Shown here one piece after another: positions 2,441-58,007 of a stretch of 64,000 nucleotides of DNA. The stretch is from assembly GCA_023105745.1 (NCBI GenBank), contig JALGQZ010000019.1:2542001-2606000 (forward strand), written 5' to 3'. The notes beneath the pieces were generated by a model that was not told the origin of the DNA, searched no databases, and was given only the letters and a program-made list of their open reading frames with translations. Each line of letters opens with the position of its first letter. Within the stretch, counting starts at the first letter, position 1. This stretch comes from Austropuccinia psidii. Taxonomy: Eukaryota; Basidiomycota; Pucciniomycetes; Pucciniales; Sphaerophragmiaceae. A program made the position numbers and the translations under genes.

Positions 2441-3740
2441 AGTAAAGGTGCTTCTGTAAGGGCTTCCCTTATCTTCTCATAAGCTTTAATTCTTTCCTGT
2501 TTCAGCTCAAATATGGTCTGTTGATCACAGATTCTATAGAGTTACTTGGCTAGAATTGAAAAATCTTTCAAGTTTTCTTGTAATAACTGGAAAATCCATA
2601 AAAAGAAATAATTTCTTTTTTATTCTTTGGTAGTTTCTTAAATAACACTGAGCTACTTTATTTTTTTTGATACCCAAGCTTAAACCAGAAAAAATATGAC
2701 CCAATTCTTGGAGTTCTTAAAAGCCAAAGCTGTATTTCATGAGTGAAATCTTCATATTCACTCCTGAAAACTTTTCAAGTACTCTTGTAAGTATTTCAAG
2801 GTGCAAAGACCATGAATCTGAGCATATAATAATATCATCAATATAAATAATGGGCCAGCCTTTAGATAATTCTGTGGGGAGGATGGTATTCATCCTTCTT
2901 TGATGATGATATGAAGCATTTTTAATCCCAAATGGCACTCTAAAATACTCATAAAGGCCACAGTGAGTAATAATTCTAAGTAAGTTCTTGGCTTTGGGAA
3001 TCAAAACATTCTTATGAAAGCCTTTCAATGCATCCATGGAGGTTATGTACTTGGATTTGGATAATTGAGTCAAAGTTTCTTGGATTCTAAGAATTTCATA
3101 CCTATCTGGAGCTGTGTAGGTATTCAGAGCTCTAAAATATCCAACCATCTTTGATTTATCATTATTCCAAGGAATAATAACAGGATTTTTTATTTCAACT
3201 TCTTCATTATGGCCTACTTTTCTCAAGACACCAAGTTGTGTCAACTCTTGGATATTTTTTTCCAAGGCTTCTCTATCTCTGTGGTTTTCTGGTTAAGCTG
3301 GTCTTCTAAGTACTGGATGGTATGGTCTGTCAATATCAATAGTAAAATCAACTTCATGCCCTCTAATAGTGCCTAATGGCTCCTTATCTGAAGGAAATGC
3401 ATTCCTATATATGTATAACACATAAATAATCTATTTCTTCAATTTTGATAATACGTTTGGATTAATTTGTGCTTCAAAAAGTTTATTTGTCATAAACTCC
3501 TCCTTATACGTAGCTTTATTTGAAGATACTATTGATATTTGTTTGGGAATATTGTACAAATAAAGTTTTTGTGATTTGTTTCCCCCAATTGTAAAAGATC
3601 TATCTTTATTGTTATTTAGTTAAATACCATAAATATTCAAGTAATCATTTAGAAGAATGATATTTTGAGATGTAAAATTGTCAATTACTACTATTTCTGT
3701 CTTCATTCTCAAAATCCTACAGGGTGTGGGAATACAAGAT
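2441..3740 (-). pseudogene. R1 protease end and reverse transcriptase
   Basis: The longest open stretch, 2717-3265 (182 codons), carries the RT palm: [23 protein letters not shown], the VPFGIKNAS block and the catalytic YIDD at residues 141-144. The YIDD form, rather than YLDD, is shared by R4 and R5. Upstream to 3740 is the protease C-terminal part with several in-frame stops; downstream to 2441 is the RT thumb/connection in broken frames. The piece ends at 3740, where R2 begins, and resumes at 14084. Confidence 0.85.
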
Positions 3741-5449
3741 TGTCACAGGGGCTCTTGGAAGAAGAGGGCCTGGCACTCAGGAATCAAGAACTCACTTGGA
3801 GGGCTCCAGAGATAAAAGAATAATAAGACTGAATTTCTTTAAGAAAGAATAAAGGGGAAAACAAGTATGCCAAAAGATGAGATAAGAAAAGATGAAGCCA
3901 ATGGCCAAAGATAATAAAGAAGCCAACCAAGTGAATCCTCAATTCACTGTTTCAACCTGCCAGAAAAGGAAATGGAATTAGTATAAGGATATGACCACCA
4001 ATATCCACTGGACAGGCGAGGAAATAAAAGAAAAGGGTGCTGAATGACTGACTTAAGATTATCAGTATTAACTTTAATAAGGTAAAAGAAAATAAGGATA
4101 AAATTAATTCCACTATATTAATTAACTGGGGAAAAAGTCCCCAGGTGCTGAAAAGGTGGCCAGTATATGTGAAAAGCTGAAAAGTTGATCCTGGAAGGTG
4201 GATCAATGACTGTATTGTCCGAATCGGGAAATACAGTTCTGGCCATCTTGAAATTTGAACTGTGTGATGGAATTCCCACAGTGGAATAAGAAGTGGCCCA
4301 ATTGGGCCAAGGCCATACAGGCTGATTGAATAAGGCCTGTACGGATGAATTGGGTTGTCCAAGGAGTATTGAATACTTGATGTCTTGACAACTAATTGAA
4401 TTTTGTAATACCTCTTGAGAATTGACCTTAGAATAATCCTGAATGAATTGTACCAGCCCAACTCCTGCAGATACAGGTGGTTGGGATCCTTGAATGATCT
4501 TCTGAATTACCGCCATGGATTGCCAGACTGATAAGCTGAAAAGTCCCCCTTCGAAATGGGCGTTGGAATTATGGACCTTGAAATGGAAAGGTGGAATTGG
4601 GTCCTGAAAACGTCACCATTGGATTGCTGAGTAAAAATGGTGCATAATGGTATATAATACCATATATGCACCACACCTGCAATCTTGAGTACGGAGTACA
4701 TGAAGGAAAGGGAAGAATTCCCCTTAAGTTGAGGGAAATTCTTGTTGAGATGATTTGGTGGCCTCTGGTGGTTGCCAGAGGCCATGACGGTGAAGTTGGT
4801 CCATGGTGGTCCAGGGCCAAAAATGGGTCCTACGGGATTTGTGGCCAAAAATGGATCCAAGGTGTTTTTGGTCCAAATTGGGTCCAAGGGATTGGTGGCC
4901 AAAAAATGGCTCAGGTGGGCCCAATTGTGGTTTGGGACCCACCTGGCCTTGGGGGCTAGGTGGTTGCCCCCTTTGGCCCCTTTTGGCCTCATTGGATTAG
5001 GCCAAAAAGGGGCCTAATCCGCCTACGGACCGTACGGACCGCGGACCGTAGAAGCCATGGGGGGCCTAAATGGCCCAAAAAGGCCATTTAGGCCAAAACC
5101 CCCATAATGAAAGGGGTGGCCAGGAAACCAAGGAAGGTGGCCATGGGGCCTGGAAGCCCCTGGAAGACAAAAGGACCCCCCCAGGCCCAAAAACAGTGAT
5201 GGAGGCCTGGGGGTTGGTGAGGTGCAAATTGGCCAAGAGGGCCAATGACGCAGGATATGGCCTGAGGCCATAAAGGATGATGGAGGCCATAAGTGGCCAA
5301 TGGAATGGGTTATGGCATAAGAGCCATGGAACCCCCAAAAGGGGTCAATTGGCCATAAATGATATGACATGGCCAATTGGCCCCAACTTGGCTCCAGGTT
5401 GGATTGGCGCCGCCATCAAGGAGGAGGGTCAAAATACGTGGTTGTGACA
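3741..5449 (-). repeat. R2 3' LTR (1709 bp)
   Basis: Bounded by TG/CA ends: TGTCACAGGGGC at 3741 and TTGTGACA at 5449 on the plus strand. Matches the right copy 12059-13424 almost base for base and the solo LTR 29285-30960. In element orientation, U3 is the GC-rich right part (about 4740-5449), full of GGCC-containing motifs and a GGACCG short-repeat tract near 5023-5051. The R-U5 part is AT-rich. It lacks a 15-bp segment, near 3910-3925, that the other copies have. Confidence 0.93.
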
Positions 5450-5463
5450 GTACCCCCCTACCT
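5450..5463 (-). other. R2 polypurine tract
   Basis: In element sense this reads AGGTAGGGGGGTAC directly before the 3' LTR, the expected plus-strand primer position. The same GGGGGTAC ending precedes the 3' LTR of R3. Confidence 0.75.
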
Positions 5464-6248
5464 TGAATGGTGAGCTCCTGAGCACCAAGATAAGGTAGAG
5501 GCCTGTTGAGGCTAATGAGATGGATTTGACGTAAGGATTCCAGAGGTATTGAATCTTGAAAGGAAGAATTGAACTGATAAGCTTGTTGGCATATGAATTG
5601 AGGTTGACTTGATCTTCTCTTGACATTTGGCTTTGACAAAGTTGAAGACATGATTTGACGTAAAGATTTGGGCGTTAAAGAGTTATAAGAAAAGAAATTT
5701 TGAAAGAATATAAAGAGTAAAGAGAAAAGGAAACAGATATAAAGAGAGAAACAGAAAACATAAAGAAAATGAAATTTGAGGGGAAATCCAATCTTCATCA
5801 CGGATTACAACAATTGATTTTGAAAGTGACCAAGGACCTGGATAAAAGAATTTGATGCCAGGTGCTCACAGAGTGGCCAAGGTGATGTTTTGACAGATTG
5901 TAGACCCCTCAGGGTAGTGCACACCAGGAGAGGAACTTACTTTGAGTAGTTGCCACTCCCGCCAGTGCCATAAATGAGAAAAATCTTGATAAATGAATGT
6001 GTTGAAAGAATAAAGTCTTGGGAAGGAGAATAAAAAGGAATGGTCCATTTGCCCAAGTGTAAATGGCCATAAATTTGGAATTCGGATGTTGAAAGCCGGG
6101 CCAAAAGGTCTGTGTTCAAATTGAAAAGTGCTCACAGAGTGGCCAAGGTGATTCTTACAATGAAGAAGAGTAGAATACCCCTAAAGGTGCATACCAGGAG
6201 TGGGACTTACTTTTGGTAATTCCTCTCCCCACCAAGCACCATAAAAAT
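5464..6248 (-). repeat. R2 3' untranslated region with internal duplication
   Basis: Non-coding stretch between the pol stop and the polypurine tract. Two diverged direct repeats lie at 5862-5974 and 6128-6244, each running from GTGCTCACAGAGTGGCCAAGG to a block ending GCCATAAA or CACCATAAA. No conserved protein domain is seen here; the short ORFs are not supported. Confidence 0.65.
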
Positions 6249-9200
6249 TCAAGCCATTGAAGAATTGGGTCCTGGCTTGTCAGGATATAACGAATGAAAA
6301 TCTTTGACAAGTTCAGGACAATTCTTGAGGTTTTCAGCTGGTTCCCATGTGGATCTTTCTGAATCTTGACTGAAACCTTTCCATTCCACCAGATACCATA
6401 ATTTTCTTCTCTTGAGCTTTGAATCCAGTACTTGAGAGACTTCCCATTCCTCTTCTTCTTCAATAATGATTGGAGGAGGAGGCTCTTGATGCCGATTTGG
6501 GATTGTTGATGTCTTGACTGGTTCCAAGAGTGAGATATGGAAGACTGGGTGGATGGATTTCCATTGAGATGGAAGCTTGAGGTGGTAAGCATGAGTACTG
6601 ACTTTCTTCAAGATTGGAAAGGGACCCAACCATCTTTCAGACAGTTTCTTGGTGGGTCTAGTTGATTTGATATTCTTGGAAGAAAGCCATACCATGTCAC
6701 CAGGATTGAAAACAGGTGGACTTGCTCTACTTTTATCTGCATACCTCTTAAGCCGGTTTATGGCGATTTCAAGTTCTCTCTTGACATCTTGCTGTACTGA
6801 TTGGATTTTTGTTGATAACATTCCAGCAGGAGTATCTTGAGTGATGTGAACTGAATCAAATTGTGGATCTCTTCCATAAACAGTGAAAAACGGTGATTGC
6901 TTGGTTGAAGAGTGATCAGAATTATTGTAGGCAAATTCAGCCAGAGGGAGCCAGGTGTTCCAATCATCTTGATGATAACTGACGTACATCCGAAGATACT
7001 GTTCTAGTATCTGATTTACCCTCTCTGTCTGTCCATCAGTTTCTGGATGGTAAGCAGTTGACAAGTCTCTTGAAATCTTGAGCTGCTGACAAAGATTGGT
7101 CCAGAAGGAAGAAACAAGGAGTGAACCTCTATCACTGACAATGCTTGATGGAAGGCCATGCTTTGAGAAGATATTCTTGATGAATAAATGGGCCAAATCC
7201 AATGAAGTTATTGAAGACATTGTTGGAATAAAAACCGCCATTTTTGAGAATCTGTCCACTATGACAAGAATTGAGTCAAAAGAATTGGACAGGGGCAGTT
7301 GAGTGATGAAATCCATTGAGAGACAAATCCAAGGACCGTTTGGAATTGGAAGAGGTTTGAGGAGTCCAAACTTCTTATGGTGGATATTCTTGTTTCTTGA
7401 ACACTGTTGACAGGATGATACATAATCCTTAATGAATTGGGTCATGCCGGACCAGTGGAAATCCCGCTTGACAAGTTTGAGAGTCTTCTCTTGGCCAGGG
7501 TGTCCAGCTAGAGGAGAGTCATGACGCTTTTGAAGAATGCTGAGTTGAATTGTGGAGTCATTTGGGACTACCACCCGATCTTTGAAGAGAAGAAGTTGGG
7601 AGGAGGAATCAAGAGAATAATCTTGGACAGATTTACCTTTACCCAAATCTTGAAGGATACTTCTGTACTGAGGATCTTGCCATAATTTCTTCTGAATTGA
7701 ATCAATCAAATTTGAAAAAGAATCCACCTTGACTGAAAAAAACTTTGAGGGTTGAACTTCATCTTGCTTAATGAGTTGTTGAAAATTCATTGGATTCTTG
7801 CTGATGAAATCCTCCCCCCTCTCCGGATAGACGTCGTCCCGACGTGATAAGGCATCTGGAAGAGTTGCTAGGCGGCCAGGGCGGTAAGTGATTGAAAAAT
7901 GAAATTCAGATAAGAATTCGGCCCAACGGGCTTGACGGCGAGTAAGGATCTTTGATGACATAAAGTACTGAAGAGAAGAATGATCGGTGAGAACTTCAAA
8001 AGGAGAGGACAGAGAAAGAAGAAAAGCCCTCCAGCGCTTGAGAGCCCAGACTATACCAAGGAGTTCCTTGTCATGAATTTCATAGTTGAGTTCTGCTGAA
8101 ATAAGCTTGCGGCTGTCAAAGGCAATGGGATGTTTTCCTGAGTCAGAGACCTGACTCAGTACAGCACCCAAAGCATAATTGGATGCATCGGTCTCTACAA
8201 TGGTCGGTAGAGAAGGATTGAAGTGGGAAAGGATTGGAGCGGTAGTGAAGGCCTCTTTGAGTTGATGAAACTGGCTAAGAGCTTCCTCATTGAGGGGGAA
8301 ACAGGAATCTTTCTTGAGGAAACCGGTGAGTGAACTGATTTTCTTTGAATAATTCTTGATGAAACGGCGGTAGAAGTTGGCAAAGCCAAGGAAGGATTGA
8401 AGAGCCTTGAGGTTTCTTGGAGGAGGCCAATTAAGGATCTGCTGGACTTTTGCTTGGTCCATCTTGAGGCCTTCAGAAGAAACAACATAACCAAGATATT
8501 CTACACTAGAAACATGAAAAAGGCATTTAGAAGCCTTGGCAAAAAGGTTATTGTCTCTGAGTCTGGAAAGAACAGTGGACACATGGGTGACATGTTCTTC
8601 CTCAGATTTGGAAAAGACCATAATGTCATCCAAATAAACCACAACAAAAACATCAAGAAGATCTTGGAATATATCATTGACAAGATTCTGAAAGGAGGCA
8701 GGAGCATTGGTGAGTCCAAATGGCATAACCAAGTACTCAAAACTGCCATATTTAGTTCTGAAGCATGTCAAATGTTCATCACCCTCCTTGATTCTGAGCA
8801 GGTTATATGCACCACGCAAATCAATCTTGGAGAAGATAGAAGAACCATTAAAGACATTAAGAAGCTGGTTCATAGGAGGAACAGGATATTTGTTCTTCCT
8901 AGTGACAGCATTGAGTTTGCGGTAATCAACACACAAACGGAGGCCACCATCTTTCTTTTTAACAAAGAGGACAGGTGCTCCTGTTGAGGAGGAGCTTGGC
9001 CGGATGAAACCTTTCTCTACATTCTCTGAAATGTAGGCCCTGAGTGTATCTGACTCTTGTTTGGATAAAGAGTAGATCACCCCAACTGGAGGTAGAGACC
9101 CCTCCAGTTCGATATGATGATCACAGGCACGGTGAGGAGGAAGTTTCTCTGCTTTCACCTTGGAGAATACATCCAAGTATTGGTGATAAACAGAGGGAAC

Positions 9201-9971
9201 AACCTTCATCACGGTTTCTACTTCTTCTGGCTCTTCCTCTTCATCCCACAACTCCTCCAGGGAGTCATGATAAGATGAAGGAGGAAGGTCCATATTCCCA
9301 AAGAAGAGATGAAGTGAAGATACAGAATTATCTTCCCCAACATCTTGAATCTCTTTGAAGACTTCATCTCCAGATGATGGTAATGACAGATGGGAATTAA
9401 GGGAAGGAATATGGACAGAAGATGGAACTGATGGTGTTCTAGAATCACCAACCAGAGCTGCACATGATTTGGCAGAGGAAGAGTCATTACGGAAGGAATT
9501 GGAAGGATCAGAATAGTCCTTTTGATCAGTATTAAAGGTGATCAGCCCTTGCCTCCAATCAATAGAAGGATTAAAATGATTGAGAAAGTCAAAGCCCAAT
9601 ATGAGGTCTTCTCCCTTGGGAGTATCAATGACTAAAAAATCCCATTCAAAGCTTGGGAAGGAAGGGAGCTCAACCATATATTTAGTATGGTGAGTCACAA
9701 ATAAGGAAGGGGACTCAGAGGAGTCCAAAATGATAAGAGGAATCTTCTCTGGAAGTTCTGACGTAGTCAATGAGTACTTGTGAACAAACTGCTTTGCAAT
9801 GAATGAGTGTGTAGCACCAGAATCAATGAGAATACTGTAAAAAACATCAGAAAGAGAAGAGAAAACAAAAAATTTAAGAGAATTCTTGACACCAGTATTC
9901 AGAATGCACAATTGTGCCCTGGAAGGAAAACTGTGAAGACCATTGAACACAACATGATCTTCACTCAGGCT
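6249..9971 (-). CDS. pol: R2 Pol polyprotein (protease-RT-RNase H-integrase-chromodomain)
   Basis: Intact frame of about 1,240 codons, entered by -1 frameshift from gag. The alternative GTG at 9950 is the first start-like codon, and numbering here counts from it. Protease: DSGATHSF at 43-50. Reverse transcriptase: VDYRKLN at 341-347, [10 protein letters not shown] at 374-383, catalytic YLDD at 439-442. RNase H: ETDAS at 586-590, LTDHSSL at 655-661. Integrase: H810, H817, C847, C850 zinc module, then D880, D940, E976, giving exact D,D(35)E spacing. A GPF motif sits at 1109-1111, and a chromodomain covers about 1166-1215 ([23 protein letters not shown]). The product should copy the RNA to DNA in cytoplasmic particles and integrate it; the chromodomain presumably guides it to marked chromatin. 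No lesion seen. Confidence 0.95.
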
Positions 9972-11302
9972 TTTCCCTGGCTGGGAAAACTGCCTGACGG
10001 TTGGGTAAGCTTGTTTTGAGGCCTTTTGACACAGGACTCAAGACTATGCTTCCCACCACAATAGGTACACAACCCCTCCTTGATTCTTCTTTCCTTTTCA
10101 GAACCTTCCAACTTGAAGTCCTTATTCAACAATGAAGAATGGGGCTTGTCCCGCTTTTGAGAATGAAATTTCTTCTTTGGTCTTGAACTTGAAGAAACTT
10201 GATGATGAGAAGAGTGAGACTTTGAGGCTTCAGGCTTCTTCTCTTGATGATGATTCTTTTCCTTCTGCCTCTCATGGTACCTGGTATCAAGTTCCAGGCT
10301 GACGTCCATTAAGTCTTGAAGAGAATCAATGTTTGAAGGATGGGAGGCCAATTGATCCAGAATCCTGGAGGCCAAACCCTTCCTGAAATGATGAATAAGA
10401 GCCCTTTCACCCCAATCCCCAATTCTTGAAACCAAACTCCTGAAATCGGCAATATACAAAGCAACATGCCCACCTTCTTTCATCCTAAGGCCATCCAATT
10501 CAGCTTCTGCTTTTCTAACTTCATTTGGGTCTCCAAATAAAGTGAACAATTGGGATTCGAATAATGGCCAGGAATTGAGGAGATAATTTGAGTCTTGATT
10601 ATTGAGGTTGGAAAGATAAGGCTCAATCCATTTTGCAGCCCTGCCAACTAAGCATGAAGTGGCATAAAGAACCTTCTTTCTGTCTTGAGAGAAGTTTGCC
10701 GGGTCATTATGAAAGATGAGTTGACAAGACTGAATAAAGCTTCTGACTTTGAAGGGCTGAGTCCCATCAAAGCATTCTGGAGCCTTCATAGAGGGAGTCT
10801 TGAAGGCTGGTGGTCTTGATAATTCAGAAGAAGAAGCTGCTTGCAGATTGGCCATAATCTGAGTCATTTGTTGCATAATGGCCAATAAAGACGGTTCAGG
10901 CTGATGAGAGGCAGGCTGATCAGACTGGGCTAGAGTTGGTCCTCTGGTGCCCTCAGATGCTCCCACAGGAGCAGGAGCAGCCTCAGTGCCATTAGACTCT
11001 TCCTCTTCCACAGAATTCTCCTCCTCCTCTTCACCATCTTCACCTTGAACCTTGGGACTGGTTCTTGAAAATCCTGGGAATCCGCCAACCACTCCTGATA
11101 AAGACATTGACCTTCTTGGCCCTCTTCCTTCCTTCCTGGATGGTGCTGCTCCTTCCATAATGGGTCCTCTGTGCAATCTGGCCCTCAGTTGAGAAACTGC
11201 TGGGGTACCGTCAAGAGGAGCCCTTGGAGTTGGAGTCAGAACAGCTTGAGTTCTGGCCTGAGATCTGGTCTGTCTTGCTGGAGGTGAATGTTGAACTGGC
11301 AT
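9965..11302 (-). CDS. gag: R2 Gag capsid/nucleocapsid protein
   Basis: 445 residues, starting at the ATG that gives [15 protein letters not shown]. The frame is open 23 codons further upstream, but that stretch is hydrophobic and looks like leader. An acidic run of glutamates lies at about 90-105. A retrotransposon-Gag capsid domain covers about 177-340, with the [21 protein letters not shown] and FRKGL blocks. A basic, histidine/lysine-rich region follows. The zinc knuckle [13 protein letters not shown] is at about 412-424. It reads C-X2-C-X3-H-X4-C, one residue shorter than the usual CCHC box. The protein should form the virus-like particle and bind element RNA. Its stop is followed within 15 bases by the pol region in another frame. 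Confidence 0.94.
9971..9977 (-). promoter_or_regulatory. -1 ribosomal frameshift heptamer GGGAAAA
   Basis: In the gag frame the codons are CAG GGA AAA GCC TGA. The heptamer G GGA AAA has the X XXY YYZ register required for -1 slippage and lies just before the gag stop. Slippage moves ribosomes into the pol frame, which is open across this point. A downstream stimulatory structure was not demonstrated. Confidence 0.7.
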
Positions 11303-12043
11303 GATTTCAGGAATAAACAACCAAAACAAATGAAATAAAATCAAAATTTTCTTGAAGTACAAAATCAACAATCAAATCTTGAGGAAATTGGATAATCAAT
11401 GAATCAAAATTCTCCAAATACGTCAATCAATCAAATCAAATGAGTCTTGAAGTAAAAATCAATATCAATGAGAATCTTGAAGTCAATAAAAACAATCAAT
11501 CAAACAATCAAAATCAAATCAAATCAAAATCTTGCAGAAAAATCAATCAATCAAAATGAATTCTTGAGTCAAAATCAATTTATGTCAAAAATCTTGATGT
11601 GAATAGTCAGCAAAATCAATAAAGTCTTCAGGTCAATCAATTATCTTGAGGTCAATTTCAATTATGTCAAATTAGTCAATCAAATCAATTTTCAAGTGAA
11701 TTCTTCCAAAAAATCAAAAATTCTTGAGGAATAAATCAAAGTGAATCCTGATATGAAGAACGTGTCTGAATAACCTGATGAATAACTTGAGAACCAAAGA
11801 TAAAGATGCCTGAATTATGGATAAAAATAGATTGATTAAGATTGAGAATGAGATTGAAAAGATAACAGAAATTAAAAAATGGGTCAGCTTTCAATTTTCA
11901 GAATGAAGAATGAATGAGGGAAAATTGAGAGGTGACGAAGAATCATAAGATCATAAAACGTCAAAGAATCATAATTTTGATGAAATGAATGAATGAATTT
12001 AAAATATAAGAATAAAAGGATGAATGAATGAAGAAGAATTATG
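11303..12043 (-). other. R2 untranslated leader with ATCAA-type repeats
   Basis: Non-coding leader between primer site and gag start. About 11380-11720 is a degenerate low-complexity tract of ATCAA/AATC and CTTGA units, in sense TTGATTGATT, with no stable coding frame. The rest is AT-rich. It could serve packaging or translation roles, but nothing in the sequence proves one. Confidence 0.6.
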
Positions 12044-12057
12044 AGTTAATTAATATA
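12044..12057 (-). other. R2 self-complementary primer-binding site
   Basis: In element sense the 14 bases TATATTAATTAACT start one base after the 5' LTR. They do not start TGG as a tRNA-primed site would. Their exact reverse complement lies inside the LTR at 12447-12460, about 40 bases downstream of a TATA-like box, which is the arrangement of Tf1-type self-primed elements. The core TTAATTAA is palindromic and AT-rich, so chance is not excluded. Confidence 0.6.
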
Positions 12058-12058
12058 A

Positions 12059-13424
12059 TGTCACAGGGGCTCTTGGAAGAAGAGGGCCTGGCACTCAGGA
12101 ATCAAGAACTCACTTGGAGGGCTCCAGAGATAAAAGAATAATAAGACTGAATTTCTTTAAGAAAGAATAAAGGGGAAAACAAGTATGCCAAAAGATGAGA
12201 TAATAAAAGATGAAGCCAATGGCCAAAGATAATAAAGAAGCCAAAAGCCAAGAAGCCAACCAAGTGAATCCTCAATTCACTGTTTCAACCTGCCAGAAAA
12301 GGAAATGGAATTAGTATAAGGATATGACCACCAATATCCACTGGACAGACGAGGAAATAAAAGAAAAGGGTGCTGAATGACTGACTTAAGATTATCAGTA
12401 TTAACTTTAATAAGGTAAAAGAAAATAAGGATAAAAATAAATCCACTATATTAATTAACTGGGGAAAAAGTCTCCAGGTGCTGAAAAGGTGGCCAGTATA
12501 TGTGAAAAGCTGAAAAGTTGATCCTGGAAGGTGGATCAATGACTGTATTGTCCGAATCGGGAAATACAGTTCTGGCCATCTTGAAATTTGAACTGTGTGA
12601 TGGAATTCCCACAGTGGAATAAGAAGTGGCCCAATTGGGCCAAGGCCATACAGGCTGATTGAATAAGGCCTGTACGGATGAATTGGGTTGTCCAAGGAGT
12701 ATTGAATACTTGATGTCTTGACAACTAATTGAATTTTGTAATACCTCTTGAGAATTGACCTTAGAATAATCCTGAATGAATTGTACCAGCCCAACTCCTG
12801 CAGATACAGGTGGTTGGGATCCTTGAATGATCTTCTGAATTACTGCCATGGATTGCCAGACTGATAAGCTGAAAAGTCCCCCTTCGAAATGGGCGTTGGA
12901 ATTATGGACCTTGAAATGGAAAGGTGGAATTGGGTCCTGAAAACGTCACCATTGGATTGCTGAGTAAAAATGGTGCATAATGGTATATAATACCATATAT
13001 GCACCACACCTGCAATCTTGAGTACGGAGTACATGAAGGAAAGGGAAGAATTCCCCTTAAGTTGAGGGAAATGCTTGTTGAGATGATTTGGTGGCCTCTG
13101 GTGGTTGCCAGAGGCCATGACGGTGAAGTTGGTCCATGGTGGTCCAGGGCCAAAAATGGGTCCTACGGGATTTGTGGCCAAAAATGGATCCAAGGTGTTT
13201 TTGGTCCAAATTGGGTCCAAGGGATTGGTGGCCAAAAAATGGCTCAGGTGGGCCCAATTGTGGTTTGGGACCCACCTGGCCTTGGGGGCTAGGTGGTTGC
13301 CCCCTTTGGCCCCTTTTGGCCTCATTGGATTAGGCCAAAAAGGGGCCTAATCCGCCTACGGCCCGCGGACCGTAGAAGCCATGGGGGGCCTAAATGGCCC
13401 AAAAAGGCCATTTAGGCCAAAACC
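12059..13424 (-). repeat. R2 5' LTR, truncated (1366 bp remain)
   Basis: Matches 3741-5100 of the 3' LTR and then stops abruptly in GGCCAAAACC. The remaining 349 bp (5101-5449 in the other copy) are missing and R3 follows. Sense-strand promoter landmarks: a TATA-like TATAC at about 12496-12500, then AGTTAATTAATATA at 12460-12447 as the probable start of the transcript. Confidence 0.9.
12447..12504 (-). promoter_or_regulatory. R2 core promoter and putative self-primer
   Basis: Sense strand: CACATATACTGG (TATA-like, about 12493-12504), then about 40 bases on, AGTTAATTAATATA (12460-12447), complementary to the primer site at 12044-12057. If transcription starts near 12460, the RNA 5' end can fold onto the primer site. 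The same motifs are conserved in the 3' LTR (about 4113-4126) and in the solo LTR near 29686. Confidence 0.5.
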
Positions 13425-13426
13425 AC

Positions 13427-13638
13427 TGTCACAGACGGTGGAACTGTGACCTATAGTACCAGAAAAAGATCAAGGAAATTCCACCTTGATCTTGTAGCCT
13501 TTTCTGCTCAGTTGTGATGATTGCGCAATCAAGCAACCTAGGGTCTAGTCATGGTGGTGGTGGGGGACCACCTGTTCCAACATGACCCTGAGTGGAGAGC
13601 TCAAGTGCTTGTTGATGGTTTCTGGCATCAATGTGACA
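13427..13638 (+). repeat. R3 5' LTR (212 bp)
   Basis: Starts TGTCACAGACGG, ends ATCAATGTGACA. A TATA box (CTATAGTACC, TATA at 13452) lies 31 bases before ACCTTGATCTT (13483-13493), the probable transcript start. That gives a U3 of only about 56 bp. An inverted repeat AAGATCAAGG (13466-13475) / CCTTGATCTT (13484-13493) spans the start point. Confidence 0.82.
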
Positions 13639-13866
13639 GAAGATCAAGGTTTACTGTCATGGGTGGATTTCACAATTGTGAGGGAGACACATTGCGAAAT
13701 TTGGGGGTTTCAAACCTGTTGGCAGAAAGGGCTTGGGAGTGATGACCCAACAACCCTTATGGCTCCTTATACCGGCCTGTTGTGTAGCTGATGCCCCTGA
13801 TTGGGACAGGGTTGCCCATCTGTGTTAGTGCACTTCGGGACACAGTGCTTCCTACCCCGGGGGTAC
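13639..13866 (+). other. R3 internal region
   Basis: 228 bp between the repeats. AAGATCAAGGTT (13640-13651) follows the LTR by one base and is complementary over 11 bases to LTR 13483-13493; it is the putative self-primed binding site. The right end ACCCCGGGGGTAC (13854-13866) is the likely polypurine tract. The frames are short and I recognise no domain, so it is treated as non-coding. Confidence 0.65.
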
Positions 13867-14078
13867 TGTCACAGACGGTGGAACTGTGACCTATAATACC
13901 AGAAAAAGATCAAGGAAATTCAACCTTGATCTTGTAGCCTTTTCTGCTCAGTTGTGATGATTGCGCAATCAAGCAACCTAGGGTCTAGTCATGGTGGTGG
14001 TGGGGGACCACCTGTTCCAACATGACCCTGAGTGGAGAGCTCGAGTGCTTGTTGATGGTTTCTGGCATCAATGTGACA
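13867..14078 (+). repeat. R3 3' LTR (212 bp)
   Basis: Same length as the 5' copy with three visible substitutions (TATAG/TATAA, TTCCACC/TTCAACC, CTCAAG/CTCGAG), so about 98.6% identical. Its final TGTGACA is directly followed by AAGAT, the target duplication that belongs to R2. Confidence 0.82.
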
Positions 14079-14083
14079 AAGAT

Positions 14084-14273
14084 TAGCGTCCAATATTCCA
14101 AAAGGGTGAATATTATTACTGGCACTACTACATTGCACACCTTCTATTGGTAAGAGATGGTTTTTCAATTGAGGAGTTATAATTTGAATGTATTCTTTGC
14201 CTACAAAAGTGCAAAATGCTCCTGTGTCCAAAATGACCTTTGCCTCAACATCATTCATCAGGATTGATTTAAT
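14084..14273 (-). pseudogene. R1 aspartic protease, N-terminal part
   Basis: Reads VKVILDTGAFCTFVGKEY-like residues with the protease motif DTGA intact, the only canonical copy among the five alpha/beta/gamma proteases here. It is cut off at 14083 by the R2 insertion and continues at 3735 leftwards. Same frame as the gag fragment on its right. Confidence 0.8.
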
Positions 14274-21836: not shown

Positions 21837-23300
21837 TTATAATAATGGATTAATTTGTGCTTCAACAATTTGATTAGACAAGAATTCATCTTTATAGGTA
21901 TCCTTAACAGAAGATACCACAGATATTTGTTTTGGCATATTGGAAAAAGCAAATTTTTGTCTTTTGTTATCCCCAATTGTGAAATATCTGTCTTTATGGT
22001 TATTGACATCAATACCATAAGTATTCAAGTAATCATTTCCAAGAATGATGTGCTGAGATGTGTAATTATCCATTACCACAATCTCAGTTTTCATCCTCAC
22101 ACTTCCTGCTGGGTGTGAAAATACAAGATTAGTGTCTAATATACCCAAGGGGTACATATTGTTACTGGCACTACTAAATTGTACACCCTCTATTGGTAAT
22201 AGATGGTTTTTCCATTCAGGAAGTATAATTTGGAGATAATCTTTGCCTACACAAGTGCAAAATGCCCCTAAATCAAAGTTTACTTTGGCTTCAATATCAC
22301 TCATCAAAACTGATGTGATACAGGATGCTCCAGCAGTGTGACCCTTTCCTCTAGCAGGTTTCGTTTTACACATTCTGGCATCTTGGATATTGATCAGGTT
22401 GCAGCAATCTTCACTGTACTTTAGTAAGTGGGTATGGACTTCTGTGACCTCAAAGAAAGCTGTAATGTTTTCAATGGGATAGTCCTCCACTGGTGTATCT
22501 TCAGAGACTGCAGAATCTTGATCAGACTCTTCTTTCTCTTCAGTACACTGAATTTCTTCAATGACCTGAACTTCATTGATTTTTGTCTTTTTGGTGCAAG
22601 TGTTTGCTAAATGTGAAGTACTTCCACATTTATGAAACTTCAAGACAGGTCTTTCTGGTCTTTTATCCTCTCTGGGAATCTTTGGGATCATCTTGGATGC
22701 CATAGGGATTCTAGTCCAAGTTTTACCAATTATTGTTCTGGTAATGATATCTTCCATTGCATTAATGCAGTCCTCTGTTGAACAGGGCTCTAAACATCTG
22801 CTTTTGATAGCATGTTCCAGTTCTCCTCCACACTCTCTTAATATCTTCATATTAATCATAGTGTCAGACATCTCTGGGTGTAAAGCAGATAATCTGTCTT
22901 TTTGTTTGAAGAACCAAGTAAGTGGTTTATCTTTTTCTGAGTTAAAAATGGCACTTTCAAAAGAATTTTCCATTTTAAAACTCCAAGAATTGTTGGCCCA
23001 TTTGGTAATCACTTCAGATTTCCACCAAGACCAATCATGTTTTCCATGATCCATCCTCATCTTGTAATACCATCTCTTTGCAGTCCTGGTAAAGAGAGAG
23101 TGTAACTTCCCCACTATGATTTCATCAGGTATATTAAAGTCTTCTTGCAACATATCAATAGTCCTGATGGACTCAATATGGTTATATTCTCCTTCACCAG
23201 AGAATTTTGGCCATTCTTCTAATTTGGGAATATCTTTGACAGAGACAACATTTTCTCCTAGAAGTGGAGTAAAACTCCCTTTAACAGAAAGTTTCTCTTA
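21837..23300 (-). pseudogene. R5 Gag capsid, zinc knuckle and protease
   Basis: 438 codons are open from 23153. Capsid-type residues come first (IPDEIIVGKLHSLF, RWYYKMR, WWKSEVITKW), then the zinc knuckle FHKCGSTSHLANTC, where the first cysteine has become Phe. An acidic linker follows (EEKEESDQD), then the protease with NFDLGAF where the family has DTGA, so the protease is probably dead. The segment is separated from the upstream gag part by a single in-frame TAA at 23298-23300. Confidence 0.87.
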
Positions 23301-47939: not shown

Positions 47940-49803
47940 TGTGAGCCTTAGAGGTATTTTCATATACCCAAAAGACCACAAATAACAAAAATAAGATACA
48001 AATATGAATAAAATGAATTTATTTATATTATAAAAATGAAAATTGAAGTATAAATACAAACTTATATATAAAAATAAGAAATCCAATTATGATTTAAAAT
48101 AAAAATTACATTAAAATTTAAAATTGTGAAAATGCATTTTTACTTGAAAAGATTACGTAAACATGAATTTTTAATAAAATTAATGGAATCAAAATATTTT
48201 TGGTAAAAATTCACATAAAATATACTATAACTTTTTATCCAATAAATAAACTTAAGAAAATTACTTCGTCATTGGATTCCTCAGAAAATGAGGTGGGGTC
48301 ACCTCTGGGTAGAAATATTGTAACTCAACTCTAAATAAGCTTAAATTAAGTTCTTAATATTTTCTGTACAACAGTTGAAAATCCTCAAAACCTTGATTCA
48401 ACTCACACCACATGTGGTGTTCACCATCAATTTTTGTGTCAAAACTCAGGTTTTGTGTGTAGTTTAAAAGTTATGAGGAATTGAAGTATTTTCAATGGAA
48501 ATGTCAAAATGTGCACGTTTATTACATAAGTGAACTGTAACTTACATTATAACTAGCAATTATTAAAGTTATGTACTTTGAAAATTCAATTGAATTGCAT
48601 GTGTAAATTACAAATGTATTACATGATGGGGAATTAAAGAAAAATAAAGTGGAAAGATTAATTCTTGGGGGGAAAGGAGCTCTAGCTCTAGGGGGGAGCC
48701 AGACCCCCAAAGTCCTTGCTAACAGGCGTGGGATTTCAAAATCCATGCAAATTTTGATCACTTTTGGCCTGGAATTGGGTCACAGGGTCTGTGACTCACT
48801 TGATGATGAGGTTTGGACACCAACTAGGGCAGTTTTAACTGTTTCCCAGAGGGTAAAACTACCCTTAAGTGAAAACAATCTTATTAAAAACAGTTGTAAC
48901 TGTTTCCAAGAGGGTAAAACTACCCTTGAGTTGAGACAATCTTATTCAAAACAGTTTTTACTGGTTTCTACGTCTCTTAAACACATTCTGACGTGTTTCG
49001 AAGGATCTAGACCAGGTATTACTATAGTAATGGCTGATTTAGGGGTCTAAAATGGCTAAAACCAGCCCTTTTTTGACCTAAACCAGGGTTCAATGATTCC
49101 ATGATTGGCTTTTCTGTTGTCACAGTGGTTTCCACGACTTAAAAGATTAATTTTACTTTTGGAGCAAGAAAATTGATGGCTATAAAAGAATGTCTTCTTT
49201 GTCCCACTTTTCTCTTCATGTTAGAATCTTTTCCTTTTATAATTAGTTTATACACTGTTAAACCAATCAATAAGAGATTCCAACTACCATTTTTAAAGAA
49301 TTTTAAACCATTTAACCATGTGAAAAAATTATTGTAATCATTTTTTGTAACTCTTAAAATCATTTGACCCCATGAACCACCCCATAAGTGAATTAAAGCA
49401 TCTTTCATCACTGTAAACTTTGTCACTTGTTTCCAAATTCACTCTGGTCACTTTTGGGTGTGTTTTCTCTTTAAAATTCTTTTTTAAAGACTTTGCTCTT
49501 CAATTAATTGCTTGCAGTTCTTTGATCAATTAATTCCAATTGAAATTGCTCTTGAAGAAATTTCTTTTGTAGCCTTAAATATCTCTTGTAGAGTATTTTT
49601 AGATACATTTTTGTTGTTGGTAAAACAATAAATCTTTATAATATTATTCTTTTAAACTTATAAAGCTAATGAAAATAAAATTTGCATGTTTTCTCTTCAA
49701 AATACTGTTTCATATCATTTTTAATCATTTTTTACCTTATACAAATTTTGAGGGCAGGAAAACTACTTGATTTTTAATCAAAGTTTCATATCCACACCTT
49801 ACA
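47940..49803 (+). repeat. R8 5' LTR (1864 bp)
   Basis: TGTGAGCCTTAGAGGTAT to CACACCTTACA. TATAAAAG promoter box at 49181-49188. Palindrome ACACCACATGTGGTGT at 48405-48420. Contains a local duplication of the ACTGTTTCC(C/A)AGAGGGTAAAACTACCCTT unit near 48837-48930 that other copies carry once. Confidence 0.92.
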
Positions 49804-49820
49804 TTTGGGGGCCCAGCCGT
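49804..49820 (+). other. R8 primer-binding site
   Basis: TTTGGGGGCCCAGCCGT directly after the LTR, identical to R4. Confidence 0.7.
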
Positions 49821-49952
49821 GATATTTTACCTGTGGCATAATTCTTCACTCTTTTTAAATCCTTGTTTTCTTATATCAAAAAATTTAAAAACATATAAAA
49901 AATACTTATAATTTAAAAAATCCATGACAAAAGAAGCTTTTTCATATTATAG

Positions 49953-50030
49953 GTGAGGCTTATATTTTTCAGTTCTTTTTTTGAAATACCTCTTTTTAAC
50001 TTAATTAATTGGCTTTTTCATTGATTTTAG
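49953..50030 (+). other. Possible leader intron in R8
   Basis: GTGAGG donor at 49953 and TTGATTTTAG acceptor at 50030, 78 bases; position and acceptor match R4 28147-28221. The downstream short ORF (50009-50260) is homologous to the R4 one. Confidence 0.4.
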
Positions 50031-50278
50031 TGTGTTACAACGTGGTAAGACAAGCAAACATTGAAACAGCCTCAACAGTAACAAACATTATTCCAGCAAG
50101 TACTGTAAATTCTGACCATAATAGTACAATTATTATAGCTCAGAATAATCAACCAGAACCAATTTCTTCTGAATTAATTAACTTGTATATCAGTAATACC
50201 CTTCATAAGGAAAATAATCTGTCAAATAGTAAGTTTTTTGACGTAAAATTACTATTTTAAGCTTTTTTAATCATAAAT

Positions 50279-50941
50279 ATGCCTCCAACCAGATTGGGAG
50301 CCAGCTATAAACCCTCAAGCAGCTCCCAAAAAGGTCATAGACGTGATTATGGCAGAAGCCAATCAGTTAAAAAAGGAAAAGGGACAGTTGATTACTTCCA
50401 AATTAATAAATTATGTCATTCTGAAGCTGATAATACTATTTTACCTTCAAACAGAGCTTACGCCGCCACAAGAATCCTCAGTGGACATATACTAAGCCAG
50501 CCAGAAGCCTTACAACAATGCATTGCAGCACAAAGAGTATCAGATCCTTTCAGATCTGTGGAAAAACTGCATGAATTCTTACCTGACTGTGAGAAAATTC
50601 CTTTGCCATCCCAACACTTGCAAATCACTCAATGGATGGAATCCATTGATGGAAAAGAAGAAAATGATGCTTTTAACAGCAGAATGGGGGAAAACAACCC
50701 TCCATCACCCAAGCAAGTGCCAAAAACAGTCCCAGTAGCCAGCAGCAGCAATTCAAATGTGAAAAAGCAGCCACAAGCTCAAAACAAGGGCAAAGGCAAG
50801 GAACCAGCCACAAAACCTTACAGCCAGGGTTACATGATCCCAAAGATTCAGCAGGATGCCATGGAAAATGTGTTTCAGATGGCCAGAAAAATGATGGAAT
50901 TACAGAAAAAGGAGGCAGCCAGATTAAAATATCAGAAATGA
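50279..50941 (+). CDS. R8 Gag ORF1 (N-terminal region)
   Basis: 220 codons from ATGCCTCCAACC: GASYKPSSSSQKGHRRDYGR, a SQPEALQQ part, LHEFLPDCEKIP, QWMESIDGKEE, then a basic Q/K/G-rich stretch (KKQPQAQNKGKGKEPATKP), PYSQGY and DAMENVFQMARKMMELQKKEAARLKYQK. The stop overlaps the next ATG as ATGA (50938-50941). A second frame is open across about 50677-50950 and its product matches the R5 Gag frame (QGQRQ..., DPK..., SQIKISEM). No known domain; the basic stretch suggests nucleic-acid binding. Start chosen by homology with R4. Confidence 0.62.
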   Translation: MPPTRLGASYKPSSSSQKGHRRDYGRSQSVKKGKGTVDYFQINKLCHSEADNTILPSNRAYAATRILSGHILSQPEALQQCIAAQRVSDPFRSVEKLHEFLPDCEKIPLPSQHLQITQWMESIDGKEENDAFNSRMGENNPPSPKQVPKTVPVASSSNSNVKKQPQAQNKGKGKEPATKPYSQGYMIPKIQQDAMENVFQMARKMMELQKKEAARLKYQK

Positions 50942-52560
50942 TTTAGGATATCTTTGATTCTATCCCAGAGTTGTATGAAGCTATGAATGACGTAAAAACT
51001 CATGTTTCTGATATAAATTTGTCTATTTGTAACAATCTTAAAACAAACAGCTTAAGTCAGAGCCAAATAAATGAAACATCTATGTTTTTTGATAAAGTTT
51101 TAAGAACAATTATAGCTTCTAATAATGAAAATTCTTTTGGCAATGAGATAAATGAACAATCTTCCATTATTAGAGAACTAACAGACAAATATTTTAAATT
51201 CAATATAGATGACATAATTGAAACAAGAATAAAACAAGCCATAAATACTAGCAAAGAGGATAATAAAAGTGTTCTTGAGAATATTTCAAAATCATTTACT
51301 GAAATAAAGACATATACAATTGCCTTGAAAAAGTGTTTTGAAATCTCACAAGAGGAAATATCAAAATTAACAATGAAGTTGAATCAGATAACCTCTGATA
51401 ATACTAGGCAAACAGAAATATGGAAATAATTAACACAAACATAAGATAATCATAAAATTAATGTAATAAATTCAGTCCAAAGTTTACAACATGAATTCAG
51501 AAATTCCCAAAGGTGTAACAATAGCAAAATGAATGATATTGAACAATTACTTCCCACCTTAACAAGAATTTCTACACCTTTGAATCACAATGAGGGCACA
51601 AGAATTCCAAATTCACAAGCATTGGAGGTTGAAAGCTCACAATTGAAAAATGAATTTTCCACTTCTTTTCATAACTTGGATCCATCAATGGGCCAAGCAC
51701 TCCTGAAAGAAATACCAAAACTTAAATAATGGCCTCACTTCAGTGGTGAAGGTGAATATGACCATATGGAATTCATCAGAGGTATTGACATGATTAAAGA
51801 ATATTTTGAATTACCAGAAAGATTGGTAACAGCAAGATCTAACACCTTGTTTACCAGATCAGCTCACAGATGGTATATCAAATTAAGACAAGCACATGGA
51901 CACTAAAGTTGTATTTGGTGGAAAACCCAAATTATCAACAAATGGGCCAATGATGCTTGGAGTTTTGAAGTTGAGAAAGCCTTTTAATCTGCCAAATTTA
52001 ATTCTGATGAAGACAAAGCTTTACCATGGTTTGGCCAACAAAAAGATAGATTAACAGAATTGTATCCTGACATGTCAGAATTTATGATCCACAGAAAGAT
52101 TCTGAGACAATGTGGGGGTGACTTAGAGAATTCTGTCAAAAGCAGGACTACTGAACAATCTTCAGCAGAAGATATTATTAATATATTAGAATAAGTAACC
52201 ACCAGAACCAGAATTGGTTCTAGTAGGGTGAATCTCAAAACAAGGTTTAATACACCTTGGAATGATTCTGTGGACAAAAATTCCAAAGAAACTTCTAATA
52301 ATGTTAAGCATAAATCTGTGAATATAATCAGAAACTGCCATATTTTCCAAAGCACCACCCACTTAGCCAATACATGTCCAAAGAGGGGGAAAAACAATGA
52401 AATTGACATTGAAAAAGAACTTGATGCTGAAAAAGAGGATAATATAATTGAAGAAAATTCAGATGATAAGTCATAAATATTTTCTGAATCTTTAAAAGAT
52501 GTAGAAAATATCAATGCCACTTTTGAGATCATTGAATTTTATTCCCACATTCCACAATTA
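50938..52560 (+). pseudogene. R8 Gag capsid and zinc knuckle
   Basis: Begins at the overlapping ATG, but the third codon is TAG. 50971-51429 is a helical, coiled-coil-like region (152 codons). Capsid residues follow across 51730-52190 with stops at about 51727, 51904 and 51985, then 52228-52476 with knuckle CHIFQSTTHLANTC (second Cys replaced by Phe) and an acidic tail (KEDNIIEENSDDKS). Confidence 0.8.
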
Positions 52561-52902
52561 AGCAATGGTCAACTTGATTTGTCAAAAATTCAAGATGCAC
52601 AACTTATTAAAACCAAACCAAACAGGGGAAAAGGTTATACAGCTGGTAACTCCTGTATAACAGAAGTGGTAATTGACAACAAGCCCACTGAACTTCTACT
52701 TGACCCAGGAGCCTTCTACTCTTGTGTTGGCAAATCTTTTCTTAATATGTGTGTACCAAATTTTGAAGATCAATTGTTACCAATTGATGGCATAAAATTC
52801 AATAGTGCAAGTAATCCAATGAAAGCATTGGGAATCTTTGAGACCAATGTCATATTTCCAAATATTAATGGAAATTTAAGAATCATGGTTTAATTTGTTG
52901 TT
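52561..52902 (+). pseudogene. R8 aspartic protease
   Basis: KPNRGKGYTAGNSCITEVVIDNKPTELLLDPGAF with the active-site motif as Asp-Pro-Gly-Ala. R4 has Asp-Pro-Glu-Ala, so the Pro may be a beta-family trait rather than decay. The frame stops at 52891, just before the next segment, in the same frame. Confidence 0.8.
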
Positions 52903-53649
52903 ATGGAAAATTGCTTTAGTACCCATTTTATATTGGGAAATGACTATTTGGTCATGTATGGGATAGACGTACATAACAACAAAGACAGATACTTTACTAT
53001 TGGAGACAATAAGCATCAAAAATTTGCCTTTTTACCATTTAAAAGACAAATTAAAGTAAGTAAAGTAGCACCAGTCAGCTTACCATTGGAAAGATTCAAA
53101 TCTGAACAGTTAAATGAAGGTGAAATAAGCCTTCATTTGACTGATAGTCAGGAAAATGAACTTTGGGCCCTTTTATATGACCATAAAGAAGCATTTGCAT
53201 CAGACAAAGAGCCTTTGGGGGCAATTATTGGTCATGAAGTTGACATCATCCTTAATATTGAGAGACCTTGTCCACCACTATTAAGAAGACCTGCATATCC
53301 AGAAAGTCCCAAATCAAGAGAAGCGCTAGAAATTCATATTAAAGAACTTCTAGACCTTGGTGTAATAAGAAAGGCTGGCCATAATAAGGAAGTAGAAATA
53401 ACTACACCAGCCATAGTGGCATGGCATAATGGAAAATCTATAATGGCTGGGGACTTTAGAGCTCTGAATGCTTATACTGTTCCAGACAGATACCCAATAC
53501 CAAAAATCCAAATTTCCCTTACCCAGATATTGCAAGCAGTGTATATAACCACTATGGATGCCCTTAAAGGATTGAATCAAAATTTGGTGACACCAAGGGC
53601 AAGGAAATACTTAAGAACATTGTTCATTGTGGAGTATGTGAATATTTGA
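52903..53649 (+). pseudogene. R8 protease end and RT N-terminal half
   Basis: 248 codons: [76 protein letters not shown] and MDALKGLNQNL. A one-base shift at about 53620 ends the frame at YVNI; the next segment resumes in another frame with the MPFGIKNAP block. Confidence 0.85.
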
Positions 53650-54743
53650 GGATGCCTTTTGGTATCAAGAATGCACCTTTACACTTCCAAAGAATGATGA
53701 ATTAAATCTTCCCTGAAGAACTTTTAGAAGGATGGTTAATCATTTACATTGATTACATTATTGTCTGTTCCAAAACTTGGGAAGAACATATGAACAGATT
53801 ATCCAGAGTTTTGACAAAAATCCAATCTGTGAACATGAAAATTTCTTTAAAGAAATTCCATTTTGGAGTTAAAGAACTTAAAGCACTGGCACCTGTATTA
53901 TCTGGTATATCCCTTGGCATTGACAAAAACAAGGTTGCAGCAGTATTGCAGAAGCCCATGCTTCAAAACAAGAAAGAAATTCAGTCATTTTTAGGGTTTG
54001 CAGGATATTACAGGCAACATATTAAAGTTTTTGCATCCATCGCAAGACCTCGTTATAAATTATGCAACAAAGACACAGTATTTGAAATGACTGTTAACAA
54101 AGTCAAGGCCTTTGAATCTTTGAGACAAGCCTTGACCACTTCTCCACTCTTACTGATGCCAGACTTTAAGCTGCCTTTTAAGCTTTATATTGATTCATCA
54201 GGAAATGGGCTTGGTGCTTCACTTCACCAAGTTCAGATTATCAATGATAAACCTGTGAAAGGACCCGTATGTTTCACATCAAGGAAGATCAAACCAACTG
54301 AAGCCAGATATGGAGCCAGTCAAATGGAATGCTTATGCCTTGTCTGGGCCTTGGAAAAGCTAAACTGCTTTCTGGAAGGATGTGTTTTTGAATTAATAAC
54401 AAATTGTACCGCTGTCAAGTCACTTTTAAAAATGAAGACTCCTAAAAGGCATGTGTTGAGATGGAAAATAGCCATACAAGAGTATAGGGGCAATATGACC
54501 ATTGCTCATAAGGATGGGAATATTCATAAAAATGCAGATGGACTGAGCAGATGGCCATTACCAAATAATATTTATAATCCTGCTTATGTTCCAGAGGAAG
54601 CTTCCCCACAAATCTCCATAGAAGGAATCAATGTTACAGACCTGAACACCACTTTCTTTGAGGAGGTAAGAAACATTTATACTCAGGATACAAATTTTAG
54701 CAATTTATGCCAATTACTTACTAAGGACTGTTAATACAATTCT
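53650..54743 (+). pseudogene. R8 reverse transcriptase C-terminal half and RNase H
   Basis: Includes [15 protein letters not shown], a stop at about 53702, and the polymerase motif YIDY at 53745-53756, where the second catalytic Asp is Tyr. Then 314 codons from 53790: [27 protein letters not shown], RNase H with [13 protein letters not shown] (Asp kept), [33 protein letters not shown] and [10 protein letters not shown], followed by the integrase linker. Confidence 0.85.
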
Positions 54744-55600
54744 TTGATACATACCTTAGATGAGATATGGAGGAAATCATATTATGAAGGAAGATCCCAA
54801 TTACTGGATGGTATAATTTACCACAAAACTAATCATACATGTGTCATGAAAGTTGTAGACAGGTCCTTAATCAAACTTGTACTTAAAGAATGCCATGACA
54901 GCCCTTTCTCAGGACATCTGTCTGAGGACAGAACAAGAGCAAAAATAAAAACTTGCATATGGTGGCCAATGTTTCAGAAAGATGTTGCAGAGTATTGAAA
55001 AACCTGTTACAGATGTCAAAAAGCAAATAAATCCACTGGCAAAAGACTTGGAAATATGATCAAGATCCAAGAGCCCAGCAGACCTTGGTAAATTGTCCAT
55101 ATGGATTGGGTAACTGGTCTGCCACCAGGGGGTGATGAAAATTATAATGCTTGCCTAGTGATGTTTGACAGATTTAGTAAGACTCCAATCTTTTTACCAT
55201 GTCACAAGGATGATACAGCCATGGATACAGCTCTTCTGATATGGAATAGAGTAATATCATGGACTGGCATATTCACAAACATCATTAGTGAAAGAGATCC
55301 CAAATTCACCTCAGCACTATGGACAAATCTTCACCAACTATTTGGGACAAAATTATCCTTCTCTACAGCCTACCACCCACAAACTGATGGTCTGGCTGAA
55401 AGGATGATCCAAACCTTGGAAGATATGGTAATAATATTTTGTGCATATGGACTTGAATTCAAAGATTGTGATGGATTTACCCATGATTGGTGTACTCTTT
55501 TACCAGCACTATAATTGGCATATAAGACATCCATTTATGCCAGTACCAATTAAACTCCCATTACTCTAGAAAAACAATGGAATCCCAAATTACCTCAAGA
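54744..55600 (+). pseudogene. R8 integrase zinc module and catalytic core
   Basis: 54744-54998 carries CHDSPFSGHLSED and ends at a TGA within the CX2C part (KTCYRC follows). 55101-55514 is the core: Asp in VHMDWVT intact, second position Glu64 (IISERDPKF) instead of Asp, Glu100 intact, 35 residues between. Extra stops at about 55088 and 55512. Confidence 0.85.
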
Positions 55601-58002: not shown

Positions 58003-58007
58003 TATAA

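Follow-up and report, generated by a model that had tools for sequence, protein, structure and literature searches.

A gene-less element of 652 bp, here called mini-1, is very probably a non-autonomous LTR retrotransposon of TRIM size that primes its own reverse transcription, is served in trans by the proteins of a Ty3/gypsy element, and at times enters the genome joined to one as a composite. One copy lies in the window, by which we mean the whole stretch of 64,000 nucleotides that was analysed. The copies of mini-1, their target duplications, the pairing within them, its paired change between families, and composites bracketed by a single duplication can all be read directly from the genome.

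The mechanism that we propose has several steps. Mini-1 RNA would start at or next to 13482/13483, and its first 11-12 nt would fold back onto a primer-binding site (PBS) one base past the LTR. The annealed primer would presumably be cut free as in Tf1, and would then prime minus-strand DNA. The enzymes would come in trans from a lineage of chromodomain Ty3/gypsy elements, most likely from the big self-complementary gypsy of the window, and the gypsy integrase would insert the mini cDNA with 5-bp duplications. At times a mini cDNA and a gypsy cDNA would be joined end to end and integrated as one unit, with the window copy being such a case. In this scheme the RNA start, the self-priming, the primer cleavage, the packaging and the identity of the helper are what we infer.

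Structure and mobility of mini-1

Mini-1 lies on the plus strand and consists of two 212-bp LTRs (13427-13638 and 13867-14078) of the form TGTCACA...TGTGACA, which differ at 3 of 212 bases and flank an internal region of 228 bp (13639-13866). The first-pass annotation had placed these two repeats, about 98.6% alike, and the non-coding DNA between them correctly. No stop-to-stop open reading frame of at least 150 aa overlaps the element, and the interior, at 228 bp, is too short for gag-pol. The U3 region holds a TATA-like motif, TATAGTA (13452-13458); its form in the 3′ LTR, as in most copies read, is TATAATA. Its first T stands 31 bases from the putative start at 13483, the distance that had been given for the window copy. 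From there ACCTTGATCTT (13483-13493) would form the first 11 nt of the RNA, the beginning of R, and serve as primer. A single G (13639) separates the LTR end from the PBS, AAGATCAAGGT (13640-13650), and the sequence bears out the earlier observation that this site is the exact 11-nt complement of 13483-13493. A polypurine-tract-like GGGGGTAC (13859-13866) precedes the 3′ LTR; the same tract, short and 3 bases from the LTR, is found in mini-1, in the related family mini-2 and in the gypsy. Past the putative RNA start, the LTR also carries a 14-nt palindrome, TGATTGCGCAATCA (13518-13531 and 13958-13971), through which mini-1 RNA could fold on itself as a hairpin or contact a second molecule as a dimer.

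The genome searched comprises 1.015 Gb in 84 contigs. A search with mini-1 returned 42 rows at 98-100% identity (best 40 of 1013 candidates scored), and a pattern across the LTR end and PBS occurs at 217 places genome-wide, 100 of them listed, with 0 for the reversed control. We gathered 81 mini-1 loci and dropped 15 whose two 30-nt flanks were both identical to those of another, these being repeat views of one place or duplicated sites (L042, L043, L069). Complete LTR-interior-LTR units make up 52 of the 66 loci left. The 5-bp target duplication is perfect in 44 of the 52, has one mismatch in 3, and is absent from 5 (L001, which is the window copy, L007, L012, L036 and L038); copies with duplications of their own thus exist, as the first-pass annotation expected of a mobile element. 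The two LTRs are identical in 11 of the 52 copies, with a median difference of 1.4%. Copies, duplications and near-identical LTRs together make mini-1 a mobile family with recent activity, and we conclude from its sequences that it is a real miniature LTR retrotransposon, TRIM-like in kind.

Copy counts are inflated in one region. Contig C7 has 21 listed mini-1 places at about 41.25-44.90 Mb, all on the minus strand, and the 4 of these that were read (L084-L087) belong to a duplicated unit that is 96-98% alike over 1.3-1.5 kb; the cluster is a large segmental array. Other arrangements were also seen. Tandem LTR-interior-LTR-interior-type arrays of mini-1 occur at L013/L029, L076 and L088, the array at L013 being bracketed by one duplication, GAGAG, and three mini-1 copies (L006, L008, L035) lie inside copies of the candidate-helper gypsy or of its LTR with normal 5-bp duplications.

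Pairing between the LTR and the primer-binding site

The match between LTR and PBS is rare by chance: when 20,000 first-order Markov versions of the mini-1 LTR were generated, 6 had a match of at least 11 nt starting no more than 4 nt from the LTR end. Most other copies read have a 12-nt match, AACCTTGATCTT (start AACC...) against AAGATCAAGGTT, and the window copy has 11 nt because its 5′ LTR carries C, not A, at 13482. Pairing in the window copy stops after base 11, where G13494 stands opposite G13639; this end point is consistent with an RNase H cut of the Tf1 type. All 11 pairs form in 46 of the 52 complete copies and 10 of 11 in the other 6, in agreement with the conserved pairing that had been anticipated. 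A pattern that includes the PBS picked out 24 of the 52, and among the copies picked without it 26 of 28 pair perfectly. There are no paired changes among the 52, so pairing within the family shows conservation only.

The predicted structure of mini-1 RNA is less straightforward. The lowest-energy fold holds 0 of the 11 helix pairs at each of three RNA lengths, and forcing the full helix costs 0.2, 2.0 and 1.5 kcal/mol. Pair probabilities for the helix are 0.66-0.94 in the RNA 13483-13660 and 0.41-0.60 in longer RNAs. RNAalifold, applied to 49 distinct R-U5-PBS fragments, many of them chosen for an intact PBS, predicts that the helix closes the whole domain. The lack of the helix from the lowest-energy fold slightly lowers our confidence in the explanation as a whole.

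Just upstream, at 13467-13476, the LTR has the inverted motif once more (AAGATCAAGG), and complementarity alone is therefore weaker evidence than it first appeared. One might read this copy, together with a lowest-energy fold that leaves the RNA start unpaired with the PBS, as a sign that the inverted motif (13467-13493) serves the LTR as a hairpin, for regulation or termination, with the copy beside the LTR a by-product and some other molecule as primer. Against such a hairpin, L040-L043 (one duplicated site, chosen by the PBS pattern) have kept the PBS and the 5′ start while the upstream copy has decayed, and mini-2 has no third copy in the aligned stretch, yet keeps the match. We consider a hairpin of this kind highly improbable, the least probable of the alternatives to self-priming or to its details.

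Further evidence for self-priming comes from related families. Mini-2, a second miniature family reached by following joined element ends, is 464 bp long with an LTR of 117 bp, and in a genome search 42 of 43 rows matched at 95-100% (best 40 of 2193 candidates scored). MAFFT aligns the two families at their ends, after the start (TAGCCTTTT), after the PBS (GTCATGG) and through the polypurine tract; BLAST similarity is significant over 45 nt at the tract/LTR junction only (E 2e-5). The PBS lies exactly one base past the LTR in both. Mini-2 pairs AACCGGTTTA with TAAACCGGTT over 10 bp, compared with the 12 bp of mini-1, and both arms differ between the families, including a 2-base length change on each side. 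Arms matched with their own partners form 12 of 12 pairs in mini-1 and 10 of 10 in mini-2, while swapped arms form 5. All ten mini-2 copies read, taken from the best-scoring rows of 42 places, pair at 10 of 10 positions; nine have the 5-bp duplication and eight have identical LTRs. The helix is present in the lowest-energy fold of predicted mini-2 RNA, with probabilities of 0.79-1.0, and the match was reproduced in 3 of 20,000 Markov LTRs. Overlapping mini-2 pairs were seen at C9:30986125 and C1:11560723.

Mini-3 is an older relative found in the C7 unit, where four duplicated stretches count as one case. It pairs AACTGGTTTG with TAAACCAGTT and differs from mini-2 by one C:G to T:A paired change plus a G.U; its arms still form 8-9 of 10 pairs with those of mini-2. 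The decayed mini-2 copy at L090 retains the helix only with two G.U pairs. Between related families, then, the arms as read change together. Of the compensatory change that the first-pass annotation had looked to, nothing is seen inside mini-1, where the lack of paired changes is uninformative, and the comparison of mini-1, mini-2 and mini-3 provides it. The TATA spacing fares worse as a general support, since mini-2 has no canonical TATA at the aligned place, where it reads TACAACT instead.

Paired change also bears on whether mini-1 could be a tRNA-primed TRIM moved by Copia elements, its LTR match being accidental. The Helenus elements of rust fungi offer a model for this: they are TRIM-sized and abundant, make 5-bp duplications, and are described in the relevant passages as using tRNA or anticodon-loop primers (PMC10886601). 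In our elements, a PBS that differs from one family to the next differs together with its LTR, no Rfam tRNA or 5S match was found in 13300-14200 at E values up to 10, ARAGORN found no tRNA in the window, and three closed composites, described below, join a gypsy and not a Copia. A PBS opposite a tRNA 3′ end is expected to start with TGG, and the mini PBS does not. On these comparisons between families and searches within the window, we rate a tRNA-primed, Copia-moved TRIM with an accidental LTR match as very improbable.

The chromodomain gypsy and composite insertions

The candidate helper is a chromodomain Ty3/gypsy element on the minus strand (3741-13424), with a complete 3′ LTR of 1709 bp (3741-5449) and a 5′ LTR that mini-1, joined on at LTR base 350, cuts short. 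Its gag (9965-11371) and its pol (6249-10037) together span 6249-11371, and pol comprises protease, reverse transcriptase, RNase H, integrase, a Tf2-1-like SH3 domain and a chromodomain (Pfam SH3_Tf2-1 and, C-terminal, Chromo). One base past its LTR lies the PBS TATATTAATTAACT (12044-12057), an exact 14-nt complement of its own LTR at base 1323. None of 4000 Markov LTRs reached an equal match. Eight copies, among them that of the window, were retrieved with a query containing both arms; all 8 keep the pair, and they are 98-100% alike. The family is abundant, with 40 of 40 scored places at 98-100% (best 40 of 2508 candidates). In its Ty3/gypsy pol, chromodomain and self-complementary PBS, the element has the features of a Tf1/sushi-like chromovirus. 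A second Ty3/gypsy family in the window (47941-58003, LTRs at about 47941-49803 and 56230-58003) has an interior that opens with a PBS-like TTTGGGGGCCCAGCC, tRNA-type by eye, and no self-match of at least 9 nt was found in it; the self-complementary pattern is thus not universal here.

The window copy of mini-1 has no target duplication of its own. Instead, one pair of AAGAT sequences (3736-3740 and 14079-14083, plus strand) brackets gypsy and mini-1 together. In a related copy of the target that has no insertion, AAGAT stands once (22125-22129). At the junction the gypsy 5′ LTR runs to base 350 and is followed by AC (13425-13426, plus strand), the same two bases that precede the mini 3′ LTR, and then by the exact start of mini-1. 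The first-pass annotation was right to treat mini-1 as a real unit, and missed that this copy and the gypsy beside it make up a composite insertion, half each.

The same arrangement could in principle arise if a mini had nested in the gypsy LTR and a deletion between TGTGACA repeats had followed. Minis do insert in gypsies with normal duplications, as at the three loci named above, and TGTGACA is present at both ends. Nesting followed by deletion would need ACCAC in the target, however; when 7 other gypsy LTR copies were aligned at the junction, all had CCCC there, without the AC. It would also leave L012 and L089 unexplained, since in these both partners are joined by intact ends. We judge it improbable and prefer a joint insertion.

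Similar joins occur elsewhere. Locus L012, read with L083, has the order TACCC, mini-1, GAC, gypsy-type LTR, TACCC. Its junction consists of G, the base that stands between mini LTR and PBS (13639 in the window), and AC, the U3-side bases. L089 has AATAG, a reversed mini-2, GTAC and a gypsy, GTAC being AC facing AC. The second AATAG was predicted before its stretch was fetched, the stretches between being read in pieces, and is present after the gypsy LTR end about 12.5 kb off (L103); it is absent at the solo-LTR and standard-length positions, where gypsy interior continues. At L091, two LTRs of a gypsy relative are joined by AAC. These composites fit cDNAs that were joined by their unprocessed ends and then integrated in a single event. 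If the junctions do preserve such ends, minus-strand synthesis of mini-1 would have begun opposite 13639, just where it would start from a primer annealed to 13640-13650. The junction bases AC, GAC and GTAC support the proposed position of the primer, and they also favour this gypsy lineage as the source of the helper.

Some further joins add less. TGTGACA-TGTCACA joins occur at 129 places genome-wide, compared with 9 for the reversed control, and 50 of them were listed. AC or GT spacers account for 7 of 38 listed joins with 3.4 expected, a weak excess (925 of 20,000 simulations were as high); the spacers were typed by hand, and the 12 places with spacer TC or GA were dropped. TGTGACA-TC-TGTCACA, found at 12 of the 50 listed places, belongs to a repeat with an inverted LTR-end-like motif. 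No mini-1 start is joined to TGTGACA within 10 nt anywhere in the genome. Another join, at L112, has GTGACATTAC before a mini-2 start, and the join at L090 has the spacer GTA; the far end of the first was not reached and only the near end of the second was read, and neither is counted. At L057 (926-1566), two mini-1 pieces are fused in inverted orientation exactly at the R/PBS motif, with the PBS-side letter at base 12, and gypsy LTR sequence follows. This fusion is perhaps a template switch at the primer site. L057 is not counted as a composite, no LTR end having been found at the expected far end (L082).

Self-priming could be right and the helper wrong, with another self-priming gypsy serving the minis in place of the window family. 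The partners at L012, L089 and L091 match the window gypsy LTR at about 77-86%, which makes them relatives; the window family itself takes part in the window composite alone. The window gypsy nevertheless shares with mini-1 a 15-nt end, GGGGGTACTGTCACA, at the polypurine tract/3′ LTR, and with the minis the 1-base gap between LTR and PBS, and three closed composites involve this gypsy lineage. A different helper is possible, though we think it unlikely, and the window family stays our leading candidate. A search for a longer element sharing the mini PBS found none, its sole match being a decayed mini; its pattern was narrow and left out elements that continue with TT as mini-1 does.

The Tf1-like self-priming that the first-pass annotation proposed has gained support from the duplications, the pairing, its co-change and the fused cDNA ends, and from these we infer the start and the priming. 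In LTR reverse transcription as generally understood, the primer is itself copied into a fresh PBS in every cycle, and both arms would therefore drift together. We are inclined to think, with some reserve, that a gene-less lineage has in this way escaped tRNA priming: its RNA start and PBS would drift together, new families with 12-bp or 10-bp pairs would arise freely while living off self-priming gypsies, and the composites would record unprocessed cDNA ends, that is, the start of each DNA strand.

Relation to known elements

TRIMs are described as tRNA-primed. Their definition includes a PBS complementary to a tRNA (as set out in PMC6934838), and the PBS matches tRNA-Leu in the ant TRIM and tRNA-Met in plant TRIMs, according to the relevant part of PMC3532108. 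Mini-1 resembles them in being shorter than 1000 bp, in LTRs within the 100-250 bp range, in its lack of genes or coding capacity, in its polypurine tract, and in its many copies with 5-bp duplications, as in plants; mini-2, at 464 bp with LTRs of 117 bp, is likewise of TRIM size. The difference lies in the PBS, which in the minis matches the element's own putative RNA start, whereas PMC6934838, in the section cited, includes a tRNA-complementary site in its definition of the class.

Two groups of TRIMs bear comparison. Helenus TRIMs are known from rust fungi, including Austropuccinia, and have tRNA-like LTRs and probable Copia helpers; the author reports, in the part of the work relevant here, that the PBS is not complementary to the tRNA-like stretch of the LTR (PMC10886601). 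Mini-1 is like them in size, 5-bp duplications and high copy number, and unlike them in that no tRNA-like LTR was found in it and its joined partner is a gypsy, not a Copia. For bivalve TRIMs, the discussion in PMC6934838 names no clear tRNA PBS and proposes no mechanism, self-priming being mentioned as a known alternative elsewhere. Mini-1 shares with these the lack of a clear tRNA PBS, and differs in its self-complementary pair, whose two arms change jointly from family to family. Searches of open-licence literature returned no title or abstract on a self-priming TRIM, which is no proof of absence.

A further parallel is with Tf1 and the sushi chromoviruses. In Tf1, bases 1-11 of the RNA anneal to the PBS and RNase H severs base 11 from base 12, and priming of the same type has been proposed for Tcn1 (both as given in the section of PMC7175516 on priming). 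Mini-1 is like these elements in that 11 nt at its putative RNA start complement a PBS next to the LTR, and its candidate helper is like them in having a chromodomain and a Tf2-1-like SH3 domain. Those elements carry genes, whereas mini-1 and mini-2 have none. For some TRIMs, those of bivalves, no primer could be named. If self-priming is true of the minis, an element of 464-652 bp would come near the minimum length at which nothing more than the proteins of another element is required, and would allow the Tf1-type primer structure to be studied in natural minimal RNAs. From the composites, in turn, the ends of cDNAs and the likely pairing of elements with their helpers can be deduced with no data beyond the genome sequence.
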